Made by a program: the position numbers and the translations under genes
The notes under the pieces: model-generated
What the model saw: the letters and a program-made list of their open reading frames with translations, nothing else
Databases searched by the model: none
What the model was told of the DNA's origin: nothing
Source of the DNA: Prolixibacteraceae bacterium
GTDB taxonomy: Bacteria; Bacteroidota; Bacteroidia; Bacteroidales; Prolixibacteraceae
Direction of reading: 5' to 3'
DNA: 27,231 bases
NCBI GenBank assembly: GCA_017998095.1
Contig: JAGODU010000040.1
Coordinates: 1-27,231 of the forward strand
Shown: positions 4,228-23,028 of the stretch, one piece after another
Position numbering within the stretch: position 1 is the stretch's first letter
How the letters are laid out: each line of letters opens with the position of its first letter

Positions 4228-7164
4228 ATGAAGTCAAACACTGTGATCAGCAGCAGAATGCTGGAAAAGCTGGCAAATACACTTGAAGGAGAATTACGTT
4301 ACGATCATATATCAAAAATCATATATTCCACTGATGCTTCGGCATATAGGGAAACCCCACTGGCTGTTGCATTTCCAAAATCAAATGAAGATATCAGAAA
4401 GCTGATAGCTTTTTCTTCAGAACATAAGACTTCCTTAATTCCCAGAGGTGCAGGTACTTCACTGGCAGGACAGGTAGTAGGTCACGGAATAGTCGTTGAC
4501 ATTTCGAAATACATGAATCAGGTTCTGGAATGTAATCCTGAAGAGAAATGGATTGAAGTTCAGCCTGGAGTAATACTTGAGGAAATGAACATTTACCTTA
4601 AGCAGTTTGGTTTAATGTTCGGTCCTGAAACATCAACTGCCAACCGTTGTACAATGGGGGGAATGTTAGGAAATAACAGCTGCGGACTTCATTCTTTGGT
4701 GTACGGAAGCGTGAGGGATCATGTTGTTGAAGTAAAGGCTTTATTGAGTAATGGTTCAGAGGTTATTTTCAATGAGTTAAGTATTGATGAATTTAAAGAT
4801 AAGCTTAAGGGTAATACCCTTGAAAACAAGCTTTATAAAAAGATTGACAGTATATTGGCTGATGAAAGTATACGATCAGAAATTCAAATGCAATATCCCC
4901 ATCCTTCGGTTCCAAGAAGGAACAACGGCTATGCTTTGGATGTTCTTTCAAACATGAATCCTTACAATGGTGAAGGAGGAAAATTCAATTTTTCAAAGTT
5001 CATTGCAGGATCGGAAGGAACACTTGCCTTTATCACGAGCATAAAATTAAACCTGGTGCCACTGCCACCAAAGGAAAAGGCTGTGTTGTGCGTTCACTTC
5101 GATAAGCTGGAAGATGCTTTCAAAGCAAACCTGATTGCATTGAAGTATAAGCCCTGGGCAGTTGAATTGATGGACAGGACAATCATGGAAATGACCAAGG
5201 GAATTCATGGTCTTGCTAAGAACAGGTTTTTTATAAAGGGAGATCCGGAGGCAATTTTAATAATTGAGTTGTGTAGTGAAGAAAAGGATGAGATAAGCAA
5301 TTGTTCGGCCTTGATAGAGAAGGAGATGAGGGATAATGGATTTGGCAATCACTTCCCTTTGATCCGGGGTTCCGACATACAAAAAGTATGGGGATTAAGA
5401 ACTGCCGGACTTGGTGTTCTTTCAAACATACCGGGCGATGCCAAGCCTGTTTCACTTGTTGAAGATACTGCTATTCCTGTTGATAAACTGCCTGAATATC
5501 TTGAAGAATTCAAGTCTTTGCTTGACAAATACAATCTGAATGCTGTTTACCATGCACATATAGCAACGGGAGAGCTTCACCTTAGGCCTGTTTTGAATCT
5601 AAAGGATACTGAAGATGTTAAGTTATTCAGGATTATAGCAGTAGAAACAGCAAAGCTGGTTAAGAAATACAGAGGTTCATTGAGTGGAGAGCATGGTGAT
5701 GGCAGGTTGAGAGGAGAGTTTATTCCATATATGCTTGGAGATAAGGTGTACGGACTTTTAAAAGAGATAAAAAACAGCTGGGATCCTGATAATATTTTCA
5801 ATCCGGGCAAGATAATCAACACTCCGCCGATGGACAAATCATTGAGGTATGAGCCGGGAGTTGACACACTTAGCCTTAACAGTTATTTTGACTATAAGAT
5901 GGAACAGGGAATGGCCAGAGCAATAGAAAAGTGCAATGGTTCGGCCGACTGCAGAAAGAGTGAGATAATTGGAGGAACAATGTGTCCGAGTTTCATGGCT
6001 ACCCGCGATGAGATACATTCAACACGGGGCAGGGCAAACGTTTTGAGGGAGTTGATTACAAAGAAAGGAGATGTGCACTGGGCTGATCAGCATGAAGTTA
6101 TGGAATCGCTGGATCTGTGTCTTTCATGTAAAGCCTGTAAAAGTGAATGTCCTTCAGGGGTGGACATGGCAAAGCTGAAAGCCGATTTCCTGCAAAACCA
6201 TTATGATGCAAATCCTACACCTGTCAGGTCATTACTGATAGCCAATTTTCCCCGTTATATGGAACTGGCAATGAAGCTACAGCCTTTGACAGGATGGGCA
6301 TTCAGATCTAAATTAATATCACCTTTGATAAAATACTTTGCCGGATTCAATACAAAGAGACCAATGCCTTCAATTTCAAAATACTCATTGAACAGCTGGT
6401 ACAAAAAACATGATAACAGTTCTAAAGCACCAAAAGGCAAAGTGTATTTATTTAACGATGAGTTTGTTAACAACAATGAATCGCATATTGGGGTAAAAGC
6501 CATATTGTTGCTTGAGAAGCTTGGATATGAAGTAGTTATTCCGCAACATACATATAGTGGAAGGACTTATTTATCAAAAGGGCTTGTAAAAAAGGCAGCA
6601 GTTTTGGCAGACAAGAATGTTGAAATGATGAAAGACATTATTTCGGAAGAGACGCCTTTAATTGGAATTGAACCTTCGGCAATACTCTCATTCAGAGATG
6701 AATATCCGCAGTTAGTTAAAAAAGAGCTTAAAGTAAAAGCTTTAGAGCTTTCTAAAAATGCACTCATGTTTGATGAGTTCATAATGAGGGAAGCAGAAAA
6801 GGGGAATATAACTTCAGATATGTTTACAACAGAAGTAGCTGAGATAAAGCTACATGGCCATTGTCATCAGAAAGCTTTGGCAACAACTGATTCCAGTAAG
6901 AAGATGCTGGAACTGCCTGTAAATTATAAGGTAAGTGAAATACCATCAGGATGTTGTGGTATGGCTGGGGCATTCGGATATGAAAAAGAGCACTATGATA
7001 TTTCAATTAAAATAGGAGAATTGGTGTTATTCCCGGCAATAAGGGAAACAGCTGACAACGTGATAATTGCAGCCCCCGGAACAAGCTGCAGGGAGCAGAT
7101 AGAGCATGGAACGGGCAGGAAAGCCATGCATCCGGTGGAGGTGTTGTACGGGGCGATGAAATAA
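4228..7164 (+). CDS. FAD-linked oxidase / Fe-S oxidoreductase fusion (GlcD-GlcF type, YdiJ-like)
   Basis: This 978-aa protein joins a flavin dehydrogenase to an iron-sulfur subunit. The N-terminal part is an FAD_binding_4 domain (about 40-180) with PRGAGTSLAGQ at residue 72 and NNSCGLHS near 150, followed by the FAD-oxidase C-terminal domain (about 250-530) with SGEHGDGR. The second half has a first cysteine group CNGSADC...CP from residue 569, a ferredoxin motif CLSCKACKSECP from residue 631, and a CCG-type domain with GHCHQKA and SGCCGMAG near 877 and 909. The family oxidises 2-hydroxy acids such as D-lactate, glycolate or D-2-hydroxyglutarate and passes electrons to the respiratory chain; E. 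coli YdiJ (D-2-hydroxyglutarate) has the same layout. The true substrate is not readable. No signal peptide or membrane helix is evident. Confidence 0.9.
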   Translation: MKSNTVISSRMLEKLANTLEGELRYDHISKIIYSTDASAYRETPLAVAFPKSNEDIRKLIAFSSEHKTSLIPRGAGTSLAGQVVGHGIVVDISKYMNQVLECNPEEKWIEVQPGVILEEMNIYLKQFGLMFGPETSTANRCTMGGMLGNNSCGLHSLVYGSVRDHVVEVKALLSNGSEVIFNELSIDEFKDKLKGNTLENKLYKKIDSILADESIRSEIQMQYPHPSVPRRNNGYALDVLSNMNPYNGEGGKFNFSKFIAGSEGTLAFITSIKLNLVPLPPKEKAVLCVHFDKLEDAFKANLIALKYKPWAVELMDRTIMEMTKGIHGLAKNRFFIKGDPEAILIIELCSEEKDEISNCSALIEKEMRDNGFGNHFPLIRGSDIQKVWGLRTAGLGVLSNIPGDAKPVSLVEDTAIPVDKLPEYLEEFKSLLDKYNLNAVYHAHIATGELHLRPVLNLKDTEDVKLFRIIAVETAKLVKKYRGSLSGEHGDGRLRGEFIPYMLGDKVYGLLKEIKNSWDPDNIFNPGKIINTPPMDKSLRYEPGVDTLSLNSYFDYKMEQGMARAIEKCNGSADCRKSEIIGGTMCPSFMATRDEIHSTRGRANVLRELITKKGDVHWADQHEVMESLDLCLSCKACKSECPSGVDMAKLKADFLQNHYDANPTPVRSLLIANFPRYMELAMKLQPLTGWAFRSKLISPLIKYFAGFNTKRPMPSISKYSLNSWYKKHDNSSKAPKGKVYLFNDEFVNNNESHIGVKAILLLEKLGYEVVIPQHTYSGRTYLSKGLVKKAAVLADKNVEMMKDIISEETPLIGIEPSAILSFRDEYPQLVKKELKVKALELSKNALMFDEFIMREAEKGNITSDMFTTEVAEIKLHGHCHQKALATTDSSKKMLELPVNYKVSEIPSGCCGMAGAFGYEKEHYDISIKIGELVLFPAIRETADNVIIAAPGTSCREQIEHGTGRKAMHPVEVLYGAMK

Positions 7165-7291: not shown

Positions 7292-8413
7292 CTAAAGAAT
7301 AAATTCGTCGAAATTATCCTTGTTTATAAGTTTAAAATCAGCATCAGGATAGCTGAGAGAAAAAGCTTTGGGAATATTAAACTTTTGCTTATCGTTCCAT
7401 TTGAATTCATAAGCATAAATGTTTCCATCATATTCCTCGATGTAATCAATTTCCTTTTGTTCTTTTGTTCTCCAGAACCATTTATTGGCCCAGAGGCCTG
7501 AATAATTAAGGAATTTTAATCTTTCAGAAACAATAAAGTTCTCCCATAATGCACCTGTGTCGTTGCGTAATTCAATCTGGTTAAAGTTGGCAATAACGGA
7601 ATTTCTTATACCATTGTCCCAGAAATAAATCTTTTTACTGTTTTTAAGTTCATTTCTAAGGTTTCTGCTAAATGAGCCAAGTCTGAAAATGATATAAGTT
7701 TTTTCAAGTAATGTGATATACTTTTCTACTGTCTTTGAGTCAATTCCACATAATTGACCAAGTTCGTTATATGAAACCTGAGAACCGACCTGAAAGGATA
7801 TTGCCTGAAGTAGTTTGATTAGATTGTCAGGCTTTTGTATTTGTTCCCAGCTTAAAATATCTTTATATAAAAAGCTGTCAGACAAGAATTTCAGTATTTC
7901 TTTTTCTTCGCCTGGATGATTAATTACATCAGGGTAATAACCATACAACAACCTTTGCGGGAGTAGTCTTTTTTCTTCTAAAAGTCCATGGTGGGCAACC
8001 ATTTCAGCAAAAGAAACGGGGAACATGTTATATTCCCATTTTCTGCCGGTTAAAGGTTCGTTTACATGATTGGCAAGTTCAAAAGATGAGCTTCCCGATG
8101 CAATAAGCTGGACATCTTGTAAAGTGTCGGTGATTAATTTCAATCTTATTCCAATATCTTCAATACGTTGGGCTTCATCTATTACCAGAATGTTTTTTTT
8201 ACCAAGTAAAGACTTTAATCTTGTTGCAGAAATGTTATTAAATAATGCCTGAACATCAAGTTCATCACCATTGAACCACATCACATTTTCATTATTGTCA
8301 GTCAATTCATGTATCAGAGTAGTTTTTCCAACCTGGCGGGGACCAAGTATTATTATGGCTTTTCCTTTAAAAAATTTTTTCTTTATTGTATTTGTCAGAA
8401 ATCTTTCTATCAT
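7292..8413 (-). CDS. AAA ATPase with DUF4143 domain
   Basis: The 373-aa protein has an N-terminal AAA_14-type ATPase domain with Walker A GPRQVGKTT at residues 24-32 and Walker B ILVIDEAQ at 75-82. A winged-helix-like middle region (about 190-260) and a C-terminal DUF4143 region follow, the latter including KEIDYIEEYDGNIYAYEFKW, which resembles a PD-(D/E)xK-like fold core (D...E-x-K). Such proteins are widespread, often strain-variable and of unknown role. It stands alone on the minus strand between plus-strand genes and pyk, next to a short repeat array, which fits an accessory insertion. The start ATG at 8413 gives a complete family N-terminus. Function beyond ATP binding is unknown. Confidence 0.85.
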   Translation of the reverse strand: MIERFLTNTIKKKFFKGKAIIILGPRQVGKTTLIHELTDNNENVMWFNGDELDVQALFNNISATRLKSLLGKKNILVIDEAQRIEDIGIRLKLITDTLQDVQLIASGSSSFELANHVNEPLTGRKWEYNMFPVSFAEMVAHHGLLEEKRLLPQRLLYGYYPDVINHPGEEKEILKFLSDSFLYKDILSWEQIQKPDNLIKLLQAISFQVGSQVSYNELGQLCGIDSKTVEKYITLLEKTYIIFRLGSFSRNLRNELKNSKKIYFWDNGIRNSVIANFNQIELRNDTGALWENFIVSERLKFLNYSGLWANKWFWRTKEQKEIDYIEEYDGNIYAYEFKWNDKQKFNIPKAFSLSYPDADFKLINKDNFDEFIL

Positions 8414-12217: not shown

Positions 12218-13402
12218 TCAGATATATTCTACATTAACTTTCTTAAAAAACTTAAGTTCCAAAAGCTTTATGATTCTTTTAACAACTGTCTTTCGTATTT
12301 CAATTTCCACAGGCTGGTCCGGGTCCTGGTGAGCCCAGTTTATTCTTGTACCAACTATAAGATGTATGATATCGTGTTGAAGCAATCTTTTTACAATTTC
12401 TTCAGCAGGAGATCCAAATAGTCGAGTTTCACTGTTGTAATTTTCAAGTATTTCTTCAACCTTACCGATAGTAATAATTCCTTCTGTCACAAGATCAAAT
12501 CCATCAAGTTTGGAAATAGGGGGAAGAGTAGGGTCAGAGAAGTGCTGAACCATTTCAAGTTTAAGATTTAGTTCACGTGAGATAATTTCTGCAGTAGTAC
12601 CTCCGCATATTATTTTCATCCCCATGAACCCCTTTATCTTTTCAATAAAGCCAATATCCTTTACTTTATAAAATGGGGGACCGGTTATGAGCATCAGTTC
12701 CCGGGGTTCTCTGAAATATACAACCCCACAGCTTGTATCATCCTTTAAATCATACTTATCATTTGTCAGAGCTTTAGTTACTATTTTTTTAGACAATTGA
12801 GTTGCTGAAATATGAGGTTGATTTTCAATTTGTTTTAGTGCAAATTCAAGAACATTTTCTGTTCCCCAACCCATATTGAATTTGAAGTCATCAATGCCCG
12901 ATTGTGTTATCCCATCAGTGAAGAAAATCATCCTGTCTTCCTTCATTGCATAGTACTCCTGACAACGTAATATCTTTCCTTTGTTTTCTACTCCGCCTAC
13001 CGTTAGTTCGTATACATTTGAAGGTCTGAAGCGTTGATTTCCTCTGATAATAAGTATTGGTGGGTTATCGTAATTGATTGTTTTTACCAATCCGTTGCTT
13101 AAGATCTCTATTACAGTAAAAGTAGCATAGTTAGGTTTTTCTCCCGAAGGTGGAAGCACATCCATTATTATTCTGGCAGCTATTTCAGGGTTTGTATGAA
13201 AACTTGTATAGTTGAGGGCCATTGTTGCTGTCAGCGTAGCTAAAACACTGGCTTTTATTCCATGACCAACACCATCTGATAATACTAGTACAGTTCGACC
13301 ATCTTCTTTCATTTGCCGTGAAATAAAAACATCACCGCTTACTTCCTGTCCCTTAGGCCGTAATTGCTGAACATCTATTTCAGTATGATAAGATTGGGTC
13401 AT
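12218..13402 (-). CDS. SpoIIE-type PP2C serine phosphatase, hydrogenase-associated
   Basis: The 394-aa protein has an N-terminal PP2C/SpoIIE phosphatase domain (about 1-230). The metal-binding aspartates are all present: SGDVF (Asp24), LSDGVGHG (Asp43), FFTDGITQSG (Asp163) and KDDTS (Asp221/Asp222), so it should be active. Residues about 233-394 form a second domain I cannot name, with LITGPPFYK, MKIICGGTTAEI and VTEGIITIGK. SpoIIE/RsbU phosphatases dephosphorylate Ser/Thr on anti-anti-sigma factors in partner-switching systems. The gene lies 39 bp after the PAS-protein gene and is divergent from a hydrogenase operon encoding an RsbW-like kinase, the likely opposing activity. PP2C genes beside sensory-type [FeFe] hydrogenases are known in other anaerobes. 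The target protein is not visible in the window. Confidence 0.88.
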   Translation of the reverse strand: MTQSYHTEIDVQQLRPKGQEVSGDVFISRQMKEDGRTVLVLSDGVGHGIKASVLATLTATMALNYTSFHTNPEIAARIIMDVLPPSGEKPNYATFTVIEILSNGLVKTINYDNPPILIIRGNQRFRPSNVYELTVGGVENKGKILRCQEYYAMKEDRMIFFTDGITQSGIDDFKFNMGWGTENVLEFALKQIENQPHISATQLSKKIVTKALTNDKYDLKDDTSCGVVYFREPRELMLITGPPFYKVKDIGFIEKIKGFMGMKIICGGTTAEIISRELNLKLEMVQHFSDPTLPPISKLDGFDLVTEGIITIGKVEEILENYNSETRLFGSPAEEIVKRLLQHDIIHLIVGTRINWAHQDPDQPVEIEIRKTVVKRIIKLLELKFFKKVNVEYI

Positions 13403-13441
13403 ATTTTATCAGATGTGTTAATGTACCAGGTTGACTTAATA

Positions 13442-14368
13442 TTATTCATTTTCTTCGTGACTGTATTTCTGGGATTCAATGATTGAGTTGAGCAGTTCTT
13501 CAGTCTGAGCAGCATTCTCACCCAGGAGATATGCAATCTGCTGAACTGTTTTCATATTCTTGCGGTTAACCTGTCGTGCTCTTTCAATGATTTCTGCCCT
13601 TTCAAGCATAGGAGCAGAAAGGTCTCTTATCAAAGCACCGGCTATCTTATGCTTTTGTATCGTTGCTATTTCAATTGCCAGCAGCTTATTCTGGTATCTT
13701 ATATCTCTGTCGATACGGTTTTCCCCGGTTTCAAAAATAGAACGAAACATGTCGGAAATAACTCCCGGGACAAGCATTTCAAGTTCAGCACCCCTAAGTC
13801 CGGGTATGGTTTCATATAGTTCTTCGTTTTCACCGCCTATCAACCGTGCAAATCCCAGGTTACTATCTATGATTTTCATATCATCACTGACAATAACGAT
13901 GCCTGCCCTGATTTTCTGAAGCATAGTAGAAGAGATCAGCATCCCGGCTTCAGACCGCTTAAGTTTATCTTCCAGCTTTTTTCTTTTGGTAATATCGATT
14001 ATTGTGCAAACGATACCGCTTATCTCATCTTTGTCATTTCTTAATGCAGATTTATTTACAGTGATTTGGCCCTTATAGTTTTCAGAATATTTAAAGTCTG
14101 TTTCATAAAACTGATCAATACCTGTTTCAAGCAATTCTTTATCCTTGAGCGAAAAAATATCAGGTTGATTAAAAGGAGTAATTTCAGATGTCATCTTGCC
14201 GTATAAATCATCTTTTAATCTTCCTATAATACGTTCAAAAGCAGAATTGCATAATACAATTTTCGAATCAATATCCATGCAAAATACCGGTACAGGCAAA
14301 GAATCTATTATTTGAGGATAGTAAGAGTCAAAAAACGATAGCTTATTTTGGTCTTCAGGAATTTTCAT
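13442..14368 (-). CDS. tandem PAS-domain sensor protein without a kinase domain
   Basis: The 308-aa soluble protein has two PAS-like domains: the first at about 20-130 (IDSLPVPVFCMDIDSK to GIVCTIIDITKRKK) and the second at about 145-250 (IRAGIVIVSDDMKIIDSNL). A helical C-terminal part follows (about 255-308, ERARQVNRKNMKTVQQIAYLLGE). There is no HisKA, GHKL, GGDEF or helix-turn-helix output, so it probably signals by protein contact. It is the first gene of the minus-strand run and is followed by the SpoIIE phosphatase gene, which makes that phosphatase the most likely partner. In some clostridial hydrogenase clusters a PAS domain is fused to the sensory hydrogenase; here it is separate. The ligand (haem, flavin or none) cannot be told. 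Confidence 0.85.
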   Translation of the reverse strand: MKIPEDQNKLSFFDSYYPQIIDSLPVPVFCMDIDSKIVLCNSAFERIIGRLKDDLYGKMTSEITPFNQPDIFSLKDKELLETGIDQFYETDFKYSENYKGQITVNKSALRNDKDEISGIVCTIIDITKRKKLEDKLKRSEAGMLISSTMLQKIRAGIVIVSDDMKIIDSNLGFARLIGGENEELYETIPGLRGAELEMLVPGVISDMFRSIFETGENRIDRDIRYQNKLLAIEIATIQKHKIAGALIRDLSAPMLERAEIIERARQVNRKNMKTVQQIAYLLGENAAQTEELLNSIIESQKYSHEENE

Positions 14369-14582
14369 GATTTTCTGTTTATAAAACCATCTGAAAAATA
14401 ATCAAATGGGAGTTCATTATCAATATCCTTTTAAATTTTATTTTAATGCGTAATTTTAAATTGCTTATTATTAGAATCTATTCTCTGATTTTGCATATTT
14501 GTATTTAGTAAATATCAGAAAATATATTCAACCGGCATGTTCGTTATATTGATGAATTGTCTTTAAAACAAATTATATTAGG
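14369..14582. promoter_or_regulatory. divergent control region between PAS/SpoIIE genes and hydrogenase locus
   Basis: This 214-bp, very AT-rich gap separates the two divergent transcription units. It contains a perfect 6-1-6 inverted repeat, TATTTA-G-TAAATA at 14502-14514, and two copies of TTTTAAATT (14429-14437 and 14454-14462). I see no clean TAnnTTTG box on either strand and no Rex-like TTGTnA...TnACAA operator. Promoters for both units must lie here or very near, but I cannot place them. Confidence 0.5.
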
Positions 14583-14924
14583 ATGAAGATTGAAGAAGTA
14601 ATAAACTTACTTAATGGGAAACTAGTTACAACAGGAAATGTTAGTCAAATAGCAGAGACGGGTTTTTGCTCAGATCTTATGAGCGATGTTTTAACCCTTG
14701 ACACTGAAAAGATGTTGCTTATAACAGGAACAGCAAACCTGCAAACAATAAGGACTGCTGAAATGGGGGATATTCATTCTATATTACTGGTAAGAAACAA
14801 AAAAGCCACTAAAGAAATGATTCAACTGGCAGAAGAAGCCGGGATAATAATTATAGAAACTCCTTTTTCTTCCTTTAAATGTTGTGGGTTATTATATAAT
14901 TCAGGATTGAAACCTGTTTACTGA
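14583..14924 (+). CDS. DRTGG-domain protein, copy 1
   Basis: The 113-aa protein resembles the DRTGG domain, a small alpha/beta fold known from the region before the CBS/phosphotransacetylase parts of some enzymes and as stand-alone proteins in hydrogenase clusters. Recognisable pieces are VINLLNGKL at the start, the GFCSDLMSDVL core at about 27-37, and a C-terminal AEEAGIIIIETPFSSF. It is a clear paralogue of the protein encoded at 16707-17039 (shared G-x-x-SDL-x-SDV and an IT...NL..I stretch). Its function is unknown; ligand sensing or docking to the hydrogenase is a guess from context. It is the first gene of the hydrogenase locus and ends one base before the RsbW-like ATPase gene. Confidence 0.75.
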   Translation: MKIEEVINLLNGKLVTTGNVSQIAETGFCSDLMSDVLTLDTEKMLLITGTANLQTIRTAEMGDIHSILLVRNKKATKEMIQLAEEAGIIIIETPFSSFKCCGLLYNSGLKPVY

Positions 14925-14925
14925 T

Positions 14926-15354
14926 ATGATACAGCTGAGGTATGAAATAGAAGGTGGAAACTTTAACAGGGCGGGACATGCATCCAGTCAGGTTAAAAAA
15001 GTTCTTAAGCAGCTTAATACTGAGCAGCGTTTAATAAAAAAAATTGTTGTAGCTTTATATGAAGCTGAGGTTAATATAGTTGCTCATGCATATAGCGGGG
15101 AAATAGAAATTTATATTTATCCTGAAAAAATTGACATGATACTTAAAGATAAAGGTCCCGGAATACCGGATGTTGAAGCAGCAATGAAGGAAGGTTTTTC
15201 TACTGCATCCCAGCTTGTCAGGGAAATGGGATTTGGTGCCGGAATGGGCTTGTCGAATATTAAAAAGAATACTGATATATTTGAGATAGAAACAGTTGTT
15301 GGAGAAGGAACAACTTTAAAAATGACAAAATTTTTCAATGATGCAGAACAATGA
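14926..15354 (+). CDS. RsbW-like GHKL serine kinase / anti-sigma-type ATPase
   Basis: The 142-aa protein is a single GHKL (HATPase_c_2) domain without a phospho-accepting His domain. The N box is YEAEVNIVAHAY with Glu46 and Asn50, G1 is DKGPGIPD with Asp75, and G2 is GFGAGMGLSN near residues 102-111. All ATP-binding parts are present. Such proteins (RsbW, SpoIIAB) phosphorylate a Ser on a STAS partner and can bind sigma factors. No STAS or sigma factor gene is visible here, so its target is open; the neighbouring DRTGG proteins or the hydrogenase-like protein are possible. It overlaps the downstream iron-sulfur gene by 17 bp, indicating tight co-translation, and is the natural opponent of the divergent SpoIIE phosphatase. 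Confidence 0.87.
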   Translation: MIQLRYEIEGGNFNRAGHASSQVKKVLKQLNTEQRLIKKIVVALYEAEVNIVAHAYSGEIEIYIYPEKIDMILKDKGPGIPDVEAAMKEGFSTASQLVREMGFGAGMGLSNIKKNTDIFEIETVVGEGTTLKMTKFFNDAEQ

Positions 15355-16720
15355 AGCTTTTTATCATTCACTGGTGATAGATGATGAAAAATGCATCAGA
15401 TGCACCCACTGTGTTAAGGAGTGTCCTACCGAAGCAATAAGAATTATTGATGGCAAGGTAGTTATCAGGGAAGAAAGATGTGTCGATTGCGGTGAATGCA
15501 TGAGGGTATGCCCTCAAAAGGCAATTTATATCGAACATGATGATCTTGAATTGATTAAAGCATTTAAATACAGAGTAGTGCTTTTCCCTTCTGTTTTTAT
15601 AGGCCAATTTCCCGACAGAATATCTGAAAACAAGATTTATGCATCCTTGATAGAAATAGGTTTTACTCATGTCTATGAAGTTGAACAACCAATTGAAGTT
15701 CTTAAAAACCAGATAAGAAAGGAAATAAAAGCCAATCAAACAGGAATGCCTTTAATTTCATCTTTTTGTCCGGCAATTGTCAGGCTTATAAGAACACGTT
15801 ATCCTTCTCTGGCATCTAATATTCTCAGAGTAAAAACTCCTCATGATATGGTTGCTAACTATGTGCTGAAAACGTTTGAGGATAAAGGAATTGCAAAAGA
15901 TGAAGTAGGTATATTCTACGTAACACCTTGTGCTGCAAAGATTACAGCTGTAAAAAGTCCTCTTGGTGAAAAACAGTCAATTATAACCGGTGTTGTTAAT
16001 TCCAAGGTAATTTATAATAAGGTGATGAGTGTTGCCGATAAGATTATTCCGGTCGACAGTAGTGAAATGAGAAGGGAAATAACAAAGGAAGGAATTCAAT
16101 GGAGCCTTACTCACGGCGAAACATGGTGGCAGACTTCCAGAACTATTGCAGTTGATGGTATTCACAATACTATTAAAATTCTGGAAAGACTTGAAAATGA
16201 TGATATGCCTCAATATGACTACCTTGAGCTGCGAGCATGCGATAGAAGTTGTGCAGGAGGTGTACTGTTATCACAAAACAGATTTCTTACTGTTGAAAGA
16301 TTAAAAAGAAGAGCTAAAAAATATCCATCATCGGAAAAGAAATCGCAGTTTGAAGAGGAAACCGACTACAAATGGCTTGATTCAAAAATGAAGATTGAAG
16401 AGATTCAGCCCCGGCCTATGCTTCGCTATGGTAAAGACAGGAAAAGGGCAATTGAAAAAATGCAAAAAGCCAGAAGTATAATGTGCCATCTGCCGGGTAT
16501 AGATTGCAGTGCCTGTGGTGCGCCGACATGCATGGCTCTTGCTGAAGATATGGCAAACAATCAGGCGAAAATGTCAGATTGCATATTTATACAACAGCTT
16601 TGGCAAAAGAATGAAAAGGTTGATCCTGCCAAGGCATTTGAAAGAATGGAAAAGAAATGGGGTGTTGGAAGATTCGACCCCGATTGCACAAAGAAAGGAG
16701 CAAAAAATGAAGGTTTCTGA
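15338..16720 (+). CDS. sensory-type [FeFe]-hydrogenase-like iron-sulfur protein (HydS/HsfB-like)
   Basis: The 460-aa protein starts with two [4Fe-4S] ferredoxin motifs, CIRCTHCVKECP (residues 19-30) and CVDCGECMRVCP (48-59), followed by a hydrogenase large-subunit-type domain (about 75-315). The four expected H-cluster cysteines appear as Cys144 (SSFCPA), Cys198 (TPCAAK) and Cys301/Cys305 (ACDRSCAGG), and Lys201 is kept. The usual first Cys of the TSCCP motif is Phe143, and the Glu three residues after the Lys is Ala204; in catalytic enzymes these serve proton transfer. A C-terminal Fe-S domain with Cys390, Cys393, Cys398 and Cys415 resembles the CODH/RnfB-type module. This fits the putative sensory groups of [FeFe] hydrogenases found beside HydABC. 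ATG 15338 overlaps the ATPase gene; an in-frame ATG follows at 15341. Confidence 0.85.
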   Translation: MMQNNEAFYHSLVIDDEKCIRCTHCVKECPTEAIRIIDGKVVIREERCVDCGECMRVCPQKAIYIEHDDLELIKAFKYRVVLFPSVFIGQFPDRISENKIYASLIEIGFTHVYEVEQPIEVLKNQIRKEIKANQTGMPLISSFCPAIVRLIRTRYPSLASNILRVKTPHDMVANYVLKTFEDKGIAKDEVGIFYVTPCAAKITAVKSPLGEKQSIITGVVNSKVIYNKVMSVADKIIPVDSSEMRREITKEGIQWSLTHGETWWQTSRTIAVDGIHNTIKILERLENDDMPQYDYLELRACDRSCAGGVLLSQNRFLTVERLKRRAKKYPSSEKKSQFEEETDYKWLDSKMKIEEIQPRPMLRYGKDRKRAIEKMQKARSIMCHLPGIDCSACGAPTCMALAEDMANNQAKMSDCIFIQQLWQKNEKVDPAKAFERMEKKWGVGRFDPDCTKKGAKNEGF

Positions 16721-17039
16721 ATTAGTTGAAAAACTTGAACTTAAAGTTTATGCCGGTAGCGATAACCTGGATACGGAAATAACAGGTGGCTATGTGTCTG
16801 ATCTTCTCAGCGACGTTATGGGCTTTGCAAGAGAAGGAAATGTATGGATTACCCTGCAAAACCACTTAAATGTTATTGCTATTGCTTCTTTAAAAGATTT
16901 ATCATGTGTAATTCTTGTTAAGAATATTGTCCCGGGTGATGATGTTATAGAAAAAGCTAACGAAGAGGGAATACCACTGTTGGGTAGCAGCTCTAAAACA
17001 TTTGAGCTAGGCGGCGAAATATACCGACTTCTTTTATAA
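16707..17039 (+). CDS. DRTGG-domain protein, copy 2
   Basis: The 110-aa protein is a paralogue of the DRTGG protein at 14583-14924. Both share a VxxLxxKL-like start, a GGYVSDLLSDVMG core here at about 27-39, an ITLQNHLNVI stretch, and a C-terminal ANEEGIPLLGSSSKTFEL. ATG 16707 is supported by AAGGAG at 16695-16700, one of the few clear Shine-Dalgarno sequences in the window. The frame is open further upstream, but that stretch lies inside the hydrogenase-like gene. It overlaps that gene by 14 bp and its stop directly abuts the PHP gene start, so translational coupling on both sides is likely. The function is unknown; location suggests work with the HydS-like protein. Confidence 0.78.
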   Translation: MKVSELVEKLELKVYAGSDNLDTEITGGYVSDLLSDVMGFAREGNVWITLQNHLNVIAIASLKDLSCVILVKNIVPGDDVIEKANEEGIPLLGSSSKTFELGGEIYRLLL

Positions 17040-17780
17040 ATGAAACGCTTTAAAGCAGATCTGCATATACACACCGTTTTATCTCCTTGCGGAAGCCTGG
17101 AAATGAGCCCTAAGATAATTGTGGAACATGCACTTTCAGCAGGTTTGGATATTATTGGTATTACTGACCATAATTCTACAAGACAATCACAAATTATCAG
17201 AGATTATGCCTGCGAAAAGGGACTTCATGTTATTTGCGGAGCTGAAGTAAATACTGCAGAAGAAGTACACTGTCTTGCCCTCTTTGAAAAGGATGAAGAA
17301 TTAAATGAATTTCAAAGCTTCCTTGATATAAAATTGAAAAACATAAAGAATAATCCCGATATTTTTGGCTATCAGGTTTATGTTGATGTCAATGAAAAAA
17401 TACTTGGAATGGAAGAAAGGCTTCTTATCAGCTCATTGGATGCTGATATTTATGAAGTTGAAGAAAAAGTCCACATTCTCAACGGCTTATTCATTCCTGC
17501 TCATATTTTCAGACCATATAACGGAATTATCAATCAACTTGGCTTTATTCCGTCAAACCTTAAAGCAGATGCGTTTGAAGTATCTTCCATTAACGACATT
17601 AGCTCTTTAAATCAAACATTAAGAATACCTTACAAGGGTACCTTTATTAAAAATTCAGATGCCCATACCCCCCGGATGATTGGAAAATCATTTACTACCT
17701 TTGAAATGGAATCACTTTCTTTTGCAGAAATAAGAATGGCTTTTGCTGATGAAAACGGAAGGAAAGTAATCCTCGAATGA
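17040..17780 (+). CDS. PHP-domain phosphoesterase
   Basis: The 246-aa protein belongs to the PHP metal-dependent phosphoesterase superfamily. Metal-binding residues are seen as DLHIHT (His9, His11), ITDHN (Asp43, His44), GAEVN (Glu69), His77, PAHIF near residue 158 and SDAHTP (Asp207, His209), so the trinuclear site looks complete. The first motif reads HTVLSPCG instead of the HTxxSDG of many family members. The substrate is unknown; relatives hydrolyse histidinol phosphate, nucleotides or DNA ends. PHP genes occur in hydrogenase clusters of other anaerobes, so a link to H2 metabolism or nucleotide signalling is plausible but not shown. The start codon follows the DRTGG stop with no gap. It is the last gene before an internal promoter. 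Confidence 0.85.
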   Translation: MKRFKADLHIHTVLSPCGSLEMSPKIIVEHALSAGLDIIGITDHNSTRQSQIIRDYACEKGLHVICGAEVNTAEEVHCLALFEKDEELNEFQSFLDIKLKNIKNNPDIFGYQVYVDVNEKILGMEERLLISSLDADIYEVEEKVHILNGLFIPAHIFRPYNGIINQLGFIPSNLKADAFEVSSINDISSLNQTLRIPYKGTFIKNSDAHTPRMIGKSFTTFEMESLSFAEIRMAFADENGRKVILE

Positions 17781-17839
17781 TATTTACATTGAAAATTTAG
17801 ATTAATTTTTAAATGTTTTTTCATTCAAAATCCTTAATA

Positions 17840-17871
17840 TTGTTTACATACTTTTTTTTCAAGTATTTTTG
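17840..17871 (+). promoter_or_regulatory. Bacteroidota-type promoter upstream of the catalytic hydrogenase genes
   Basis: TTG at 17840-17842 and TATTTTTG at 17864-17871 match the Bacteroidota -33 TTTG and -7 TAnnTTTG pattern with a 21-bp gap. The -7 box ends 21 bp before ATG 17893, giving a short leader. It lies in the only gap over 100 bp inside the locus (17781-17892), so the downstream genes could be transcribed separately from the sensory half. Confidence 0.5.
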
Positions 17872-17892
17872 GCAATAAATGTTTCAAAATAA

Positions 17893-18441
17893 ATGACCGA
17901 ACTATCACTGCATATCCTCGACATTGTTCAAAATTCAATTACAGCACAAGCTTCGTTGATCAGCATTATTATTGACGAAGACATTAAAAATGATAAGTAT
18001 ATCATTAGCATAGTCGATAACGGAACAGGAATGGATAGTGAAACATTAAATAAAGTTACCGACCCTTTTTATACTTCAAGGACAACCCGAAAGGTTGGTG
18101 TAGGGATTTCTCTATTTAAACAAAATGCAGAACAGGCCGGAGGAAGCTTTAATATTGAATCAACTCCTGGTGCAGGTACTTCAGTTACAGCTATTTTCGG
18201 TCATTCTAATATCGACAGACCAATTTTAGGAGATATTGCCGGTACTATGACTTTACTCATAGGAGCTAATCCGCAAATACGTTTTATTTACGAGCATAAA
18301 ACACCGGTAAGTGATTTTCAGTTTGATACCGAAGAAGTTAAATCAGAACTTGAAGGTGTGCCTATCAACCACCCCGATATTATAAAAATATTAAAGGAAT
18401 TGATAGAAGAAAATCTTAAATTGATTGAAGCCGGTAATTGA
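17893..18441 (+). CDS. stand-alone GHKL ATPase (histidine-kinase-like ATP-binding protein)
   Basis: The 182-aa protein begins directly with a GHKL ATPase domain: N box LDIVQNSITAQA with Asn14, G1 VDNGTGMD, DPFYTSRTT, and G2 as KVGVGISLFKQNAEQAGG. It is of the sensor-kinase type (DPFYTSR) rather than RsbW type, yet has no HisKA, sensor or membrane part. Residues from about 107 onward (GDIAGTMTLLIGANPQIRF and a charged C-terminus) form a short extra region I cannot name. It could be a kinase for an unseen partner or an ATP-dependent docking protein. Similar ATPases are often found next to the HndB-HydB genes of [FeFe] hydrogenase operons. It is the first gene behind the internal promoter and lies 79 bp before the ferredoxin gene. 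Confidence 0.82.
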   Translation: MTELSLHILDIVQNSITAQASLISIIIDEDIKNDKYIISIVDNGTGMDSETLNKVTDPFYTSRTTRKVGVGISLFKQNAEQAGGSFNIESTPGAGTSVTAIFGHSNIDRPILGDIAGTMTLLIGANPQIRFIYEHKTPVSDFQFDTEEVKSELEGVPINHPDIIKILKELIEENLKLIEAGN

Positions 18442-18520: not shown

Positions 18521-18916
18521 ATGAAAATCAAATCCTTGGATGATCTGCGAAAGATAAAGGCAGATGTCAGTGAAAAAATGAAGCTTAGGGAGCAAGCTGA
18601 AAATTCCGATAATATTGTTCAGGTTAAAGTTGCAATGGCTACATGTGGTATTGCAGCAGGGGCCAGGGATATCATGACATTTATTATCGATGAACTTGAA
18701 TTTCAAGGGATAGATGCTATTGTCACCCAAACAGGCTGTATGGGCTTTTGCTATGCAGAACCTACAGTTGAAGTTGTAATTCCGGGACAAGCTCCTGTTG
18801 TTTATGGTTTTGTAACTAAAGACAAAGCCCGGGAAATCATTACCGAACATATAATGAAAGGCGAAATTGTTGATGGGATGATTCCTGTTAATTATAAGAC
18901 AATCAACGAACAATAG
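18521..18916 (+). CDS. hndB: thioredoxin-like [2Fe-2S] ferredoxin, HndB-like hydrogenase subunit
   Basis: The 131-aa protein has a charged N-terminal helix (about 1-35) and a thioredoxin-like ferredoxin fold with MATCGIAAGARD (Cys42) and QTGCMGFCYAEP (Cys73, Cys77). Only three of the four cysteines of classic [2Fe-2S] thioredoxin-like ferredoxins are obvious; this pattern is, from memory, usual for stand-alone HndB-type proteins, so cluster binding is uncertain. In the HndABCD hydrogenase of Desulfovibrio the equivalent subunit relays electrons or aids assembly. HydB encoded next door has its own N-terminal domain of the same fold, so two versions coexist. It is followed 20 bp later by hydB. 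Confidence 0.85.
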   Translation: MKIKSLDDLRKIKADVSEKMKLREQAENSDNIVQVKVAMATCGIAAGARDIMTFIIDELEFQGIDAIVTQTGCMGFCYAEPTVEVVIPGQAPVVYGFVTKDKAREIITEHIMKGEIVDGMIPVNYKTINEQ

Positions 18917-18936
18917 TATAAATCAAAATTATTGTA

Positions 18937-20730
18937 ATGGCTGATTTCAAAATGCACATATTAGTTTGTGGCGGTACCGGTTGCCGGGCATCACATTCAG
19001 AGAAAATAGTTACTAATCTGAAGACAGGCTTGAAAGAAAGGAACCTTGAGAATGAAATTAAGGTAATCACTACCGGCTGTTTCGGATTTTGCGAAAAGGG
19101 TCCGGTGATAAAAGTTGTTCCCGATAATACTTTCTACACTGAAGTTCGTCCGGAAGATGTTAATGATATCATTGAAGAACACATTATTAAAGGTCGTCCG
19201 TTAAGGCGTCTGCTATATGTGAATCCTAAAAATGAATATCATGTAACAAGCACTGCCAATATTGATTTTTATAAGAAGCAGGTTAGAATTGCTTTAAGGA
19301 ATTGTGGTTTTATAAATCCTGAAAATATTGAAGAGTATATTGCCCGTGATGGCTATTCTGCATTAGGCGTATGTTTATCAGAAAAGACACCGGCTGAAGT
19401 TATCTCTATAATCAAGGATTCGGGCCTCAGAGGCAGGGGAGGCGGTGGTTTTCCAACCGGTCTTAAATGGGAAATTACTTCTAAATCACAAAGTGATCAG
19501 AAATATGTAGTCTGCAACGCTGATGAAGGCGACCCCGGGGCTTTCATGGACAGGTCTATTCTTGAAGGCGACCCTCACTCTGTTATTGAAGCAATGGCAA
19601 TTTGTGGTTACAGTATTGGCGCTGACAAAGGGCTGGTTTATATAAGGGCTGAATATCCTCTTGCTATTAATCGTTTGAAAATAGCAATCAATCAGGCCAG
19701 GGAATATGGTTTGCTTGGTGAAGATATTTTAGGTACAGGCTTTAATTTTGATATTGAACTGAGATATGGTGCAGGCGCTTTTGTTTGTGGCGAAGAAACT
19801 GCTTTAATTCATTCAATGGAAGGCTCCAGGGGTGAACCTACATTCAAGCCGCCTTTCCCTTCTGTGTCGGGTTATCTTGGAAAACCTACCAACGTTAATA
19901 ACGTTGAAACATTTGCCAATATTCCTGTTATTATAAACAAAGGATCGGAGTGGTTCAATAAAATAGGCACAGAAAAATCCAAAGGAACTAAGGTTTTTGC
20001 CTTAGCCGGAAAAGTTAACAACGTTGGACTTATTGAAGTTCCGATGGGTATTACTCTCCGTGAAGTTATTTTCGATATTGGCGGAGGAATCAGGAATGGC
20101 AAGAAATTCAAGGCAGTACAAACCGGTGGACCTTCAGGAGGCTGTCTTACTGAAAAACATCTTGATACTCCAATAGATTACGATACTCTTATTGCTGCCG
20201 GTTCTATGATGGGATCAGGCGGAATGATTGTTATGGATGAAGATGATTGTATGGTGTCGATTGCAAGATTCTACCTTGAATTTACACTCGATGAATCGTG
20301 CGGGAAATGCACACCTTGCAGAATTGGTAATAAACGACTGCATGAAATCCTAACCAAAATAACAATGGGTGAGGGGACAATGAAAGATATCGAGAAACTC
20401 AGAATATTGTCCGGTGTTATTAAAGATGCTTCATTATGCGGATTGGGGCAGACTTCTCCAAACCCCGTATTATCTACCCTGGATAACTTTTACCATGAAT
20501 ATGAAGCTCATGTAAAAGATCAAAACTGTCCGGCAGGTCAATGTAAAAATCTAATTCGATATAGTATAAATGCTGAACTATGTACCGGTTGTACCCTTTG
20601 CTTCAGGAATTGCCCTGTGGGTGCAATTACAGGAGAAAGAAAAATGCCGCATTATATCGATCAGTCTATATGTATAAAGTGTGGTATCTGCTTTGAAAAA
20701 TGTAAGTTCAAAGCTATCAGCATTAACTAA
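18937..20730 (+). CDS. hydB: [FeFe] hydrogenase flavoprotein subunit HydB/HndC (NuoF-like)
   Basis: The 597-aa subunit binds NAD(P)H and FMN and is the site where bifurcating hydrogenases split electrons between NADH and ferredoxin. An N-terminal thioredoxin-like [2Fe-2S] domain (Cys11, Cys16, about Cys48, Cys52) is followed by the NuoF core: glycine-rich GLRGRGGGGFPTG from residue 163 (NADH), CNADEGDPGAFMDR, GAGAFVCGEETALI (FMN), and the [4Fe-4S] motif SCGKCTPCR with its distant fourth Cys in SLCGLG. Two C-terminal [4Fe-4S] ferredoxin motifs start at Cys549 (CTGCTLCFRNCP) and Cys579 (CIKCGICFEKCK). This extended layout matches HydB/HndC rather than complex I NuoF. It pairs with HydA and HydC encoded directly downstream. 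Whether the enzyme is truly bifurcating, and whether it uses NAD or NADP, cannot be read. Confidence 0.95.
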   Translation: MADFKMHILVCGGTGCRASHSEKIVTNLKTGLKERNLENEIKVITTGCFGFCEKGPVIKVVPDNTFYTEVRPEDVNDIIEEHIIKGRPLRRLLYVNPKNEYHVTSTANIDFYKKQVRIALRNCGFINPENIEEYIARDGYSALGVCLSEKTPAEVISIIKDSGLRGRGGGGFPTGLKWEITSKSQSDQKYVVCNADEGDPGAFMDRSILEGDPHSVIEAMAICGYSIGADKGLVYIRAEYPLAINRLKIAINQAREYGLLGEDILGTGFNFDIELRYGAGAFVCGEETALIHSMEGSRGEPTFKPPFPSVSGYLGKPTNVNNVETFANIPVIINKGSEWFNKIGTEKSKGTKVFALAGKVNNVGLIEVPMGITLREVIFDIGGGIRNGKKFKAVQTGGPSGGCLTEKHLDTPIDYDTLIAAGSMMGSGGMIVMDEDDCMVSIARFYLEFTLDESCGKCTPCRIGNKRLHEILTKITMGEGTMKDIEKLRILSGVIKDASLCGLGQTSPNPVLSTLDNFYHEYEAHVKDQNCPAGQCKNLIRYSINAELCTGCTLCFRNCPVGAITGERKMPHYIDQSICIKCGICFEKCKFKAISIN

Positions 20731-20747
20731 TAAGAAAAATATTGAAA

Positions 20748-22520
20748 ATGGATACGATAAAATTAACAATAGACAATAAAGAACTGGAAGTTGAAAAGGG
20801 AACTACAATCCTTGAAGCGGCCCGGAAAGTAGGTGTCCATATTCCTACACTTTGTCACATGAAGCTTGAAGATATGGGCATTGAAAATAAGCCCGGTGGT
20901 TGCAGGGTTTGTGTAGTGGAAGTGAAGGGAAGAAGAAATCTTGCTCCGGCCTGCGTTACTGAAGTTGATAATGGAATGCTTATAAACACTCATTCCATGA
21001 GGGTCGTTAATGCCAGAAGAACAATTCTTGAACTAATTATTTCTGACCATCCTTTTGAATGTCTTACCTGTGCAAAAGCCGGAGAATGTGAATTACAGAA
21101 GCTGGCTCAGGATATGGGAATCAGAGAAATTCATTACGAAGGTGAAAAGTCAACTTACAGAGAAGATACATCTCCGGCCATCATTCGGGATATGGATAAA
21201 TGTATCATGTGCAGAAGGTGCGAAATGATGTGTAATGAAGTGCAGACGGTAGGTGTTCTTTCTGCTATAAACAGAGGCTTTCAGGCTGTTGTTTCTCCTG
21301 CTTTTGAAGAAAACCTTGACCATTCGGTTTGTACATATTGTGGTCAGTGTGTTGCTGTTTGCCCGACCGGTGCTTTAACTGAAGTAAACCATACTGCTGC
21401 TGTTATCCGCGCATTATCTGACCCAAATAAAACAGTAATTGTTCAAACTGCTCCGGCTGTCAGAGCTGCCTTAGGCGAAGAATTCGGATTACCGGCCGGA
21501 ACTCTTGTTACAGGTAAAATGGCTTCTGCTTTAAGGAGATTGGGTTTTGACTTTGTCTTTGATACTGATTTTGCTGCCGACCTTACTATTATGGAAGAAG
21601 GCACGGAATTACTGTCAAGACTTACAAGACACCTTGAAGGTGACACTTCAGTGAAACTCCCAATCCTTACTTCTTGTTGCCCTGCCTGGGTTAAATTCTT
21701 TGAACATCAGTTTCCAACAATGATTGATATTCCTTCTTCTGCCAAGTCACCTCAGCAAATGTTTGGTGCTATTGCCAAAACATACTTTGCAGAAAAACAA
21801 AATATTAAGAGGGAAGACCTTGTGGTTGTTTCTATTATGCCTTGTGTTGCTAAAAAATACGAGTGCAGCAGAGATGAATTCAAGGTAAATGGAAACCCTG
21901 ATGTAGATTATGCTTTAACTACCAGAGAGCTTGCCGCTTTAATCAAGCTTGCAAATATTGATTTTATGTCACTGGAAGATGAAGAGTTCGATCATCCTTT
22001 AGGTGAATCTACCGGGGCAGCTGTAATCTTTGGAACAACAGGCGGTGTTATTGAAGCAGCTGTAAGAACAGCCTATGAATTGCATACTAAAAAGCCTTTG
22101 CCTAAAGTTGATTTTGAAGAGCTTAGAGGAATGGAAGGAGTGAGGGAAGCTATTATCGACTTCGACGGTCTTCCAATTCATATAGGTATTGCTCATGGTT
22201 TGGGCAATGCACGTAAACTACTTGAGGATATTCAATCAGGTAAGTCACATTACCATGCCATTGAAATAATGTCTTGCCCCGGTGGTTGTATCGGCGGTGG
22301 CGGACAACCTTATCATCATAGCAACTCTGAAGTATTGAAAGCCCGCCAGATGGCTATTTATAGCGAAGATTCCATGAAGGTTATCAGAAAGTCGCACGAG
22401 AATCCGTATATAGTTAAGCTTTACGAGGAATATCTGGGTCATCCTATGAGCGATAAAGCTCATCATCTGCTACATACAGGATATTTCGACCGTAGTACTA
22501 AAATTATTAAAGAAGGTTAA
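20748..22520 (+). CDS. hydA: [FeFe] hydrogenase catalytic subunit HydA/HndD
   Basis: The 590-aa subunit makes or consumes H2. An N-terminal [2Fe-2S] domain (Cys36, Cys52, Cys55, Cys69) is followed by a His-ligated [4Fe-4S] site (His101, Cys105, Cys108, Cys114) and two ferredoxin clusters (CIMCRRCEMMC from 152, CTYCGQCVAVCP from 195). The H-cluster domain has all three classic motifs intact: TSCCPAW from residue 308, MPCVAKKYE with Cys366, and EIMSCPGGCIGGGGQP with Cys510 and Cys514. The small-subunit-like tail (about 535-590) is fused, as in monomeric or HydA-type enzymes. ATG 20748 is preferred over a TTG two codons upstream. HydE, HydF and HydG, needed to build the H-cluster, are not in the window. 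It lies 17 bp after hydB. Confidence 0.96.
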   Translation: MDTIKLTIDNKELEVEKGTTILEAARKVGVHIPTLCHMKLEDMGIENKPGGCRVCVVEVKGRRNLAPACVTEVDNGMLINTHSMRVVNARRTILELIISDHPFECLTCAKAGECELQKLAQDMGIREIHYEGEKSTYREDTSPAIIRDMDKCIMCRRCEMMCNEVQTVGVLSAINRGFQAVVSPAFEENLDHSVCTYCGQCVAVCPTGALTEVNHTAAVIRALSDPNKTVIVQTAPAVRAALGEEFGLPAGTLVTGKMASALRRLGFDFVFDTDFAADLTIMEEGTELLSRLTRHLEGDTSVKLPILTSCCPAWVKFFEHQFPTMIDIPSSAKSPQQMFGAIAKTYFAEKQNIKREDLVVVSIMPCVAKKYECSRDEFKVNGNPDVDYALTTRELAALIKLANIDFMSLEDEEFDHPLGESTGAAVIFGTTGGVIEAAVRTAYELHTKKPLPKVDFEELRGMEGVREAIIDFDGLPIHIGIAHGLGNARKLLEDIQSGKSHYHAIEIMSCPGGCIGGGGQPYHHSNSEVLKARQMAIYSEDSMKVIRKSHENPYIVKLYEEYLGHPMSDKAHHLLHTGYFDRSTKIIKEG

Positions 22521-22536
22521 CCCTAAAAATAATATT

Positions 22537-23028
22537 ATGCCAAAGATTAAATTATCGGAATACGCAATAACCACTGTTAAGGAAATTTGTTCCGCGTTTA
22601 ATAACAGCGAAGGGGAGTTGATCAATGTATTACATCAGGTGCAGCATAAATTAGGTTATTTACCGGCCGAAATTCAGGAGTTAATTTCTAAAGAACTGAA
22701 TGTTTCTGTTGCCAAAGTTTATGGTGTTGTGACCTTTTATTCCTTCTTTACAATGAAGCCTCAGGGCGAACATCCAATTTCAATTTGTATGGGAACTGCC
22801 TGCTATGTCAGAGGGGGCGAACAAGTACTTGATGAATTTAAGCGGCAGTTGAAAATCGACGTTGGTGAAACTACTGCTGATGGTAAGTTTTCACTTAGCG
22901 CCCTCCGGTGTGTTGGTGCCTGCGGACTTGCCCCTGTTGTAATGATAGGTGAGAAAGTTCACGGAAGAGTTGCTCCTGCTGATGTTAAAAATATTCTATC
23001 GGAATATAAAGAAGGCTGTGTCAAATAA
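22537..23028 (+). CDS. hydC: [FeFe] hydrogenase NuoE-like subunit HydC/HndA
   Basis: The 163-aa subunit has the NuoE/24-kDa layout: an N-terminal helical part (about 1-75, with LINVLHQVQHKLGYLP and VYGVVTFYSFF) and a C-terminal thioredoxin-like [2Fe-2S] domain with cluster ligands Cys84 and Cys89 (ICMGTACYVRGG) and Cys125 and Cys129 (RCVGACGLAP). All four ligands are present. It completes the HydABC core by passing electrons near the flavin of HydB. It starts 16 bp after hydA and is the last gene before a strong terminator. The same fold occurs in NADH dehydrogenases and formate dehydrogenases, but the order HndB-HydB-HydA-HydC makes the hydrogenase assignment secure. Confidence 0.95.
   Translation: MPKIKLSEYAITTVKEICSAFNNSEGELINVLHQVQHKLGYLPAEIQELISKELNVSVAKVYGVVTFYSFFTMKPQGEHPISICMGTACYVRGGEQVLDEFKRQLKIDVGETTADGKFSLSALRCVGACGLAPVVMIGEKVHGRVAPADVKNILSEYKEGCVK

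Follow-up and report, generated by a model that had tools for sequence, protein, structure and literature searches.

When the kinase and the phosphatase of a partner switch are encoded together without their usual partner, which protein do they act on? The question is raised by a gene set at positions 12,218 to 18,441 of a 27,231-nucleotide stretch of DNA (the window) from a Prolixibacteraceae bacterium (assembly GCA_017998095.1, contig JAGODU010000040.1), in which a SpoIIE-type phosphatase and an RsbW-like kinase accompany HydS, an [FeFe]-hydrogenase of putative sensory function. Known switches of this kind act on a STAS anti-anti-sigma protein. An earlier note on this DNA, finding none in the window, had proposed that the target is either encoded elsewhere or local, a DRTGG protein or HydS itself. 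Sequence comparison favours a local DRTGG partner over a STAS protein elsewhere, because a DRTGG gene, DRT1, adjoins the kinase gene, the two occur as natural fusions, and the DRTGG proteins carry an invariant serine. That the whole set works as a partner switch without STAS, responding to hydrogen or to the state of electron carriers, has about an even chance of being right. The set consists of the following genes:

12218..13402, minus strand: SpoIIE-type (PPM) serine phosphatase (PF07228), with a conserved C-terminal part of ~160 residues that has no Pfam match
13442..14368, minus strand: PAS protein (PAS2) with one clear PAS, one weak PAS and a conserved tail, without a hydrogenase domain
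14583..14924, plus strand: DRT1, a DRTGG-fold protein with the motif SDLMSDV, proposed partner and phospho-acceptor (codons of S30, 14670-14672, and of S34, 14682-14684)
14926..15354, plus strand: RsbW/SpoIIAB-like GHKL serine kinase with E46, N50, H54, D75 and the G boxes intact
15338..16720, plus strand: HydS, an [FeFe]-hydrogenase with group D (M2e) features
16707..17039, plus strand: DRT2, a second DRTGG protein with the motif SDLLSDV (codon of the invariant serine 16809-16811, S35 counted from the ATG)
17040..17780, plus strand: PHP-domain phosphoesterase with its His/Asp/Glu motif residues intact, a possible second phosphatase
17893..18441, plus strand: HK2, a stand-alone GHKL ATPase in which no further Pfam domain was found

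The first two genes diverge from the others, and DRT2, starting at the ATG at 16707, overlaps HydS by 14 bases. The two ATPases that the earlier note had recognised are both present: the RsbW-like kinase, its catalytic residues intact, exceeds the Pfam cut-off (HATPase_c_2, 47.0 bits against 27.4), as does HK2 (HATPase_c, 60.3 bits against 26.4). The note had also tied its proposal to conserved linkage of these genes, and their linkage in related genomes is far above chance. HydS has at least 582 relatives in genome contigs, the best 80 of which, all named Bacteroidota, are the source of the locus counts given here; adjacency refers to loci with complete genes only, the window excluded. The kinase gene directly follows DRT1 in 77 of 77 loci and is directly followed by HydS in 78 of 78 (DRT1 could not be counted in L021, at a contig edge, or in L039, where it is present but cut). 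HydS is followed by DRT2 in 59 of 79 loci, DRT2 by the PHP gene in 60 of 65 and the PHP gene by HK2 in 58 of 64. HydB and HydA, subunits of a bifurcating hydrogenase, lie within the same stretch in 46 of 79 loci, some of the stretches being short. The DRT1-kinase-HydS block is surrounded by housekeeping genes in several loci, and in three genomes (G029, G030 and G034) DRT2-PHP-HK2 lies on a separate contig (L099, L083 and L100).

Two records carry the same six genes: one from Subdoligranulum (Bacillota), where hydABC lies alongside, and one from Parabacteroides distasonis (L144), whose stretch has no hydABC. DRT1 was found in 2 of 148 genomes phylum-wide and in 76 of 247 within the order; 15 pattern matches in viral contigs included no relative. 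Of 16 genomes, 15 have two or more matches to the DRTGG family (PF07085); the other, G003, has one, although its locus L005 contains both DRT genes; the sole match of another type in those 16 genomes is a phosphotransacetylase (Pta) with DRTGG in G010. A 955-residue frame in L074 (1142-4009), in which HydS continues into a thioredoxin-like protein whose start resembles a signal peptide, was considered as a meaningful HydS fusion and rejected; it is probably a lost stop or an assembly fault.

In the classical layout of a partner switch the small partner gene adjoins the kinase gene, the position that DRT1 holds here. In L142 (5364-6203, minus strand) the two are a single natural fusion protein, and the best 120 of its 6,266 matches all contain both the DRTGG and the kinase part. 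E46 and D75 of the kinase never vary among 79 separate and 120 fused sequences, and N50 is kept in 119 of the 120 fused ones. By these residues the protein would be a GHKL serine kinase of the kind used in classical partner switches; its fold is SpoIIAB-like, and its score against the spIIAB (anti-sigma F factor) equivalog is 62.6 bits, below the cut-off of 135.

DRT1 and DRT2 belong to the DRTGG family by score (26.6 and 28.9 bits against a cut-off of 25.2) and by fold. Every DRT1 sequence, 78 of 78 separate and 120 of 120 fused, has S34 of the motif SDLxSDV, and DRT2 shares it; apart from S34 and T48, no Ser/Thr position is conserved across DRT1, DRT2 and fused DRT1. The DRT1 model places S34 at the start of a helix (residues 33-37) after a strand (26-29). 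STAS acceptor residues likewise lie at the start of a helix after a strand. No STAS chain appeared among the rows shown for the DRT1 structural model, though a distant similarity is still possible.

Several observations weigh against DRT1 as a phosphorylated partner in such a switch. T48 and T58 of DRT1 are conserved about as well as S34. DRT2 carries SDLxSDV beside a different ATPase, which means that the motif may be structural or ligand-binding, and the DRT2 of L143 retains the serine with the rest of the motif lost. From a fusion it follows that the two are partners, but not which of them is modified. When DRT1 and the kinase of L034 were modelled as one chain, read through a stop codon, the single domains came out well, but at a pTM of 0.55 there is no confident interface (24 of 87 rows paired). 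In L074, HydS has neither DRT1 nor the kinase in the 1.2 kb upstream, and the kinase of L141, a locus described below, falls below the HATPase_c_2 cut-off. This type of SpoIIE is missing from 7 of 40 module-bearing genomes, and any SpoIIE domain from 3 of them.

The first of these observations also speaks for the strongest alternative, unlikely but of real weight: the DRTGG proteins would not be phosphorylated but would serve, as in CBS-pyrophosphatases, as regulatory or ligand-binding subunits by which the kinase is held or gated, and the target of the kinase would be another protein such as a HydABC subunit. Its further support is that the fold of DRT1 is common to the DRTGG part of CBS-pyrophosphatases and the HprK N-domain, and that the separated DRT2-PHP-HK2 blocks keep the motif without an RsbW-type neighbour. 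Against it stand the conservation of S34, with T48, in all three sets of sequences and its place at a helix start after a strand.

The other local candidate, HydS, looks like a sensor rather than a target. The HydS-like gene noted earlier is of the expected kind: C144, C198, C301 and C305 of the H-cluster and a C-terminal Cx2Cx4Cx16C motif are kept in 19 of 19 aligned rows. Group D sensory hydrogenases are marked by loss of C299, replacement of Met353 by Ser or Thr, a C-terminal Cx2Cx4Cx16C motif and absence of a fused PAS, according to the accessible part of PMC8163306. With F143 in the place of C299, T196 in that of Met353, cysteines at C390-C393-C398-C415 and no PAS, the window HydS is, as judged from these features, of group D (M2e). 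Its reading as a sensor is better supported because of the L141 locus, an operon of the hydABC type, in which the place expected for HydS is taken by a CBS pair that forms one protein with the RsbW-like kinase (5726-6643); no HydS was found in that stretch, an apparent exchange of one sensor for another. By analogy with the HydS family, the signal would be hydrogen or the state of ferredoxin. The presumed output is encoded directly downstream (18521..23028):

18521-18916, plus strand: small protein with weak likeness to Trx-type ferredoxin
18937-20730, plus strand: HydB
20742-22520, plus strand: HydA (914 bits to NF040763, cut-off 765)
22537-23028, plus strand: HydC/NuoE

HydA is present in 40 of 40 module-bearing genomes tested, which is consistent with HydABC as the output without proving it. 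The same figure, together with the lack of any DNA-binding domain recognised by Pfam in the module proteins, would also suit a role of the GHKL ATPases, DRTGG proteins and PHP protein in HydABC assembly or maturation instead of signalling. Such a role is improbable: the kinase retains its catalytic residues and SpoIIAB-like fold, a CBS pair can replace HydS, and the DRT1-kinase-HydS block also occurs among unrelated genes. As to the small protein, it scores below the Pfam cut-off and lies upstream of HydB in 46 of the 50 loci that have it. The bifurcating hydrogenase of A. woodii is reported to have an extra cofactor-free subunit, HydD, of ~15 kDa (PMC6288185, in the part accessible), with which small genes here, such as that at 17893-18441, might be compared. 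Elsewhere in the window, an AAA_14/DUF4143 ATPase (7292-8413) adjoins pyruvate kinase, and among the related loci the record of L144 (NZ_OY725779.1) is labelled a plasmid and carries gyrA, which makes the label doubtful.

If the kinase modifies DRT1, which enzyme would reverse the reaction? In agreement with the earlier claim of a SpoIIE phosphatase with all its metal aspartates, the SpoIIE domain scores 60.4 bits (Pfam cut-off 25), and D24, D43, D163, D221 and D222, presumably the metal ligands, are invariant in 21 of 21. Residues ~232-394 are conserved and match no Pfam family; they may form a domain for sensing or docking. The accompanying protein had been described as a tandem PAS, of which the first half holds: the first PAS (residues 17-126) exceeds the Pfam cut-off, and the second (~155-230) stays below it (PAS_9, 15.8 bits of 27, E 0.017), with support mainly from alignment to the end of HydS-PAS proteins. 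This type of SpoIIE has 40 matches in 33 of the 40 module-bearing genomes; given the genomes without it, or without any SpoIIE domain, it is not the universal reversing enzyme. The PHP protein, usually encoded beside DRT2, is a candidate second phosphatase, its motif residues, which we take to be a metal site, each being conserved in 65 of 65.

SpoIIE also occurs in a second setting. In L025, L028, L054 and L060 the gene upstream of this SpoIIE encodes a protein with a hydrogenase part (by Pfam in L028, by alignment in the other three), an iron-sulfur end, a PAS-like part (which exceeds the Pfam cut-off in L060 but not in L025 or L028) and a conserved tail. The window PAS2 aligns with the PAS-like part and tail of these HydS-PAS proteins (group C type). 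The protein resembles the final part of a sensory hydrogenase in which another PAS has taken over the place of the hydrogenase part; Pfam finds in PAS2 no hydrogenase domain of the kind that a HydS unit of group C3 would have. Inspection of 30 of the 40 SpoIIE matches gave 12 with a PAS2-type neighbour and 18 without. Among those 18, a long frame with a PAS match lies upstream in 15 (14 similar to HydS/HydA, all 15 cut where the stretch ends). The rule that SpoIIE outside PAS2-type loci always follows a HydS-PAS gene was rejected, since the remaining three have neither. According to the accessible text of PMC5037454, HydDB places phosphatase-linked units in C3, with a role undetermined and possibly regulatory through Ser/Thr phosphatases. 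The accessible parts of PMC5707799 and PMC11837493 describe hfsB (a PAS hydrogenase) with hfsC (a serine phosphatase) as well as HydS, and cite a proposal that the Ruminococcus albus HydS signals through its PAS to an adjacent Ser/Thr kinase. Most simply, the window would combine a C3-like phosphatase arm minus its hydrogenase with a group D-like kinase arm.

The kinase could instead be an RsbT-like activator, held by DRT1 until a signal lets it bind and activate SpoIIE, with phosphorylation secondary. Close relatives are named RsbT in some sources, and the SpoIIE/PAS2 pair adjoins DRT1, in the divergent arrangement of the window, in 17 of 80 loci; this is very improbable all the same, SpoIIE being unlinked in most of the 80 loci (21 have it) and absent from the seven genomes mentioned.

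Does a STAS protein serve the switch from elsewhere in the genome? The statement that the window encodes none holds for the 16 proteins scanned with Pfam, a set that does not include HydB, HydA and some outer genes. The wider search covered 40 module-bearing genomes other than the window's own. PF01740 had no match in one of them, matched only frames above 500 residues (transporter size) in 11 and a smaller frame in 28; PF13466 yielded no further small frame in the 12 without one, and DUF4325, presumably a STAS-like family, matched in G034 and, weakly, in G028. In ten of the 40 (G015, G021, G023, G027, G029, G030, G031, G032, G036 and G037) these three models found no stand-alone STAS or STAS-like gene, with the caveat that genome completeness is unstated and that the models could miss a divergent STAS. 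Eight of the ten keep this type of SpoIIE; G015, G023, G029, G030 and G037 have no other SpoIIE, and HATPase_c_2 matches just once in each of G015, G029 and G037. Classical switching through a stand-alone STAS protein encoded elsewhere is the least probable explanation and is disfavoured as a general answer because of these ten genomes (completeness unstated), five of them without another SpoIIE, even with a small STAS gene in 28 of the 40 and the window's own genome outside the search.

What the sequences show directly is the set of genes with their conserved active-site residues, the order of the genes, the fusions, the invariant serine and the outcome of the STAS searches. For the preferred reading, with DRT1 as the partner, we infer each step, from the sensor role of HydS and the phosphorylation of DRT1 to its reversal through SpoIIE or PHP and the choice of HydABC as target. 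HydS would sense hydrogen or redox state and control the RsbW-like kinase, which would phosphorylate DRT1 in the place of a STAS partner, most likely on S34 and less likely on S30, T48 or T58. SpoIIE/PAS2 or PHP may reverse this. In the window the opposing arm would be SpoIIE with its PAS regulator, by appearance a descendant of a C3-like hydrogenase-phosphatase pair, and DRT2-PHP-HK2 (a DRTGG protein, a phosphoesterase and a GHKL ATPase) may be a second half of the same switch. The state of DRT1 and DRT2 would set HydABC, most likely its activity at the protein level, since none of the module proteins has a DNA-binding domain known to Pfam. A broader proposal is more tentative: DRTGG proteins with SDLxSDV, separate or fused, might be a second, STAS-independent class of phospho-partner for RsbW-type kinases, present in Bacteroidota, Bacillota and Aminicenantes at the least. 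The sensors (HydS or CBS) would be interchangeable, the phosphatases would be of two types, and an electron-bifurcating hydrogenase would be controlled at the protein level.

Many gut and sediment bacteria carry, beside a hydrogen-metabolising enzyme, a switch-like gene set in which a different small protein stands where the partner would be and which may adjust hydrogen metabolism. If correct, the reading would extend the principle of partner switching to a new acceptor fold and suggest how fermenting gut and sediment bacteria set hydrogen production or uptake. Group D sensory hydrogenases have been purified and studied, with onward signal transfer an open question in the accessible part of PMC8163306; the conserved kinase-DRTGG pair offers a concrete next step. 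Going by titles and the beginnings of abstracts, the DRTGG papers found outside subscription journals (the R. albus HydS paper is in one) include none on hydrogenase or RsbW-type kinases. By title, the non-subscription papers found to combine at least three of partner switching, hydrogenase, SpoIIE, HATPase and STAS domain likewise include none on hydrogenase regulation, and the accessible parts of PMC9431212 and PMC6288185 contain nothing on such a mechanism.

How does the module compare with known systems? The closest are RsbW/RsbV/RsbU and SpoIIAB/SpoIIAA/SpoIIE, which share its domain families (a GHKL serine kinase and a PPM phosphatase) and its placing of a small partner gene beside the kinase gene. 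A PPM/SpoIIE phosphatase is present in the window, and its type in 33 of 40 module-bearing genomes; a STAS phospho-acceptor was not found among the scanned window proteins or, as a stand-alone gene, in the ten genomes above. The module differs in that the proposed partner has a DRTGG fold, not STAS, and that the kinase goes together with HydS or CBS parts and scores far below the spIIAB cut-off; no sigma factor is among the module genes, and no search aimed at a bound sigma factor was made. The group D (M2e) HydS of Thermoanaerobacter mathranii is the counterpart of the sensor, and its paper, in the part accessible, leaves signal transfer open without the word DRTGG. Group C3 units (hfsB-hfsC of Thermoanaerobacterium, HydS of Ruminococcus albus) have SpoIIE beside HydS-PAS, as do L025, L028, L054 and L060, whereas the window unit has another PAS in front in place of a hydrogenase domain and stands beside a HydS-kinase-DRTGG module. 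The DRTGG domains of CBS-pyrophosphatases, Pta and AF1212 and the HprK N-domain share the fold of DRT1; SDLxSDV was not seen in Pta and AF1212, the two compared. In Pta, the pyrophosphatases and HprK the DRTGG-type domain lies inside an enzyme, whereas here it stands alone or is fused to a kinase.

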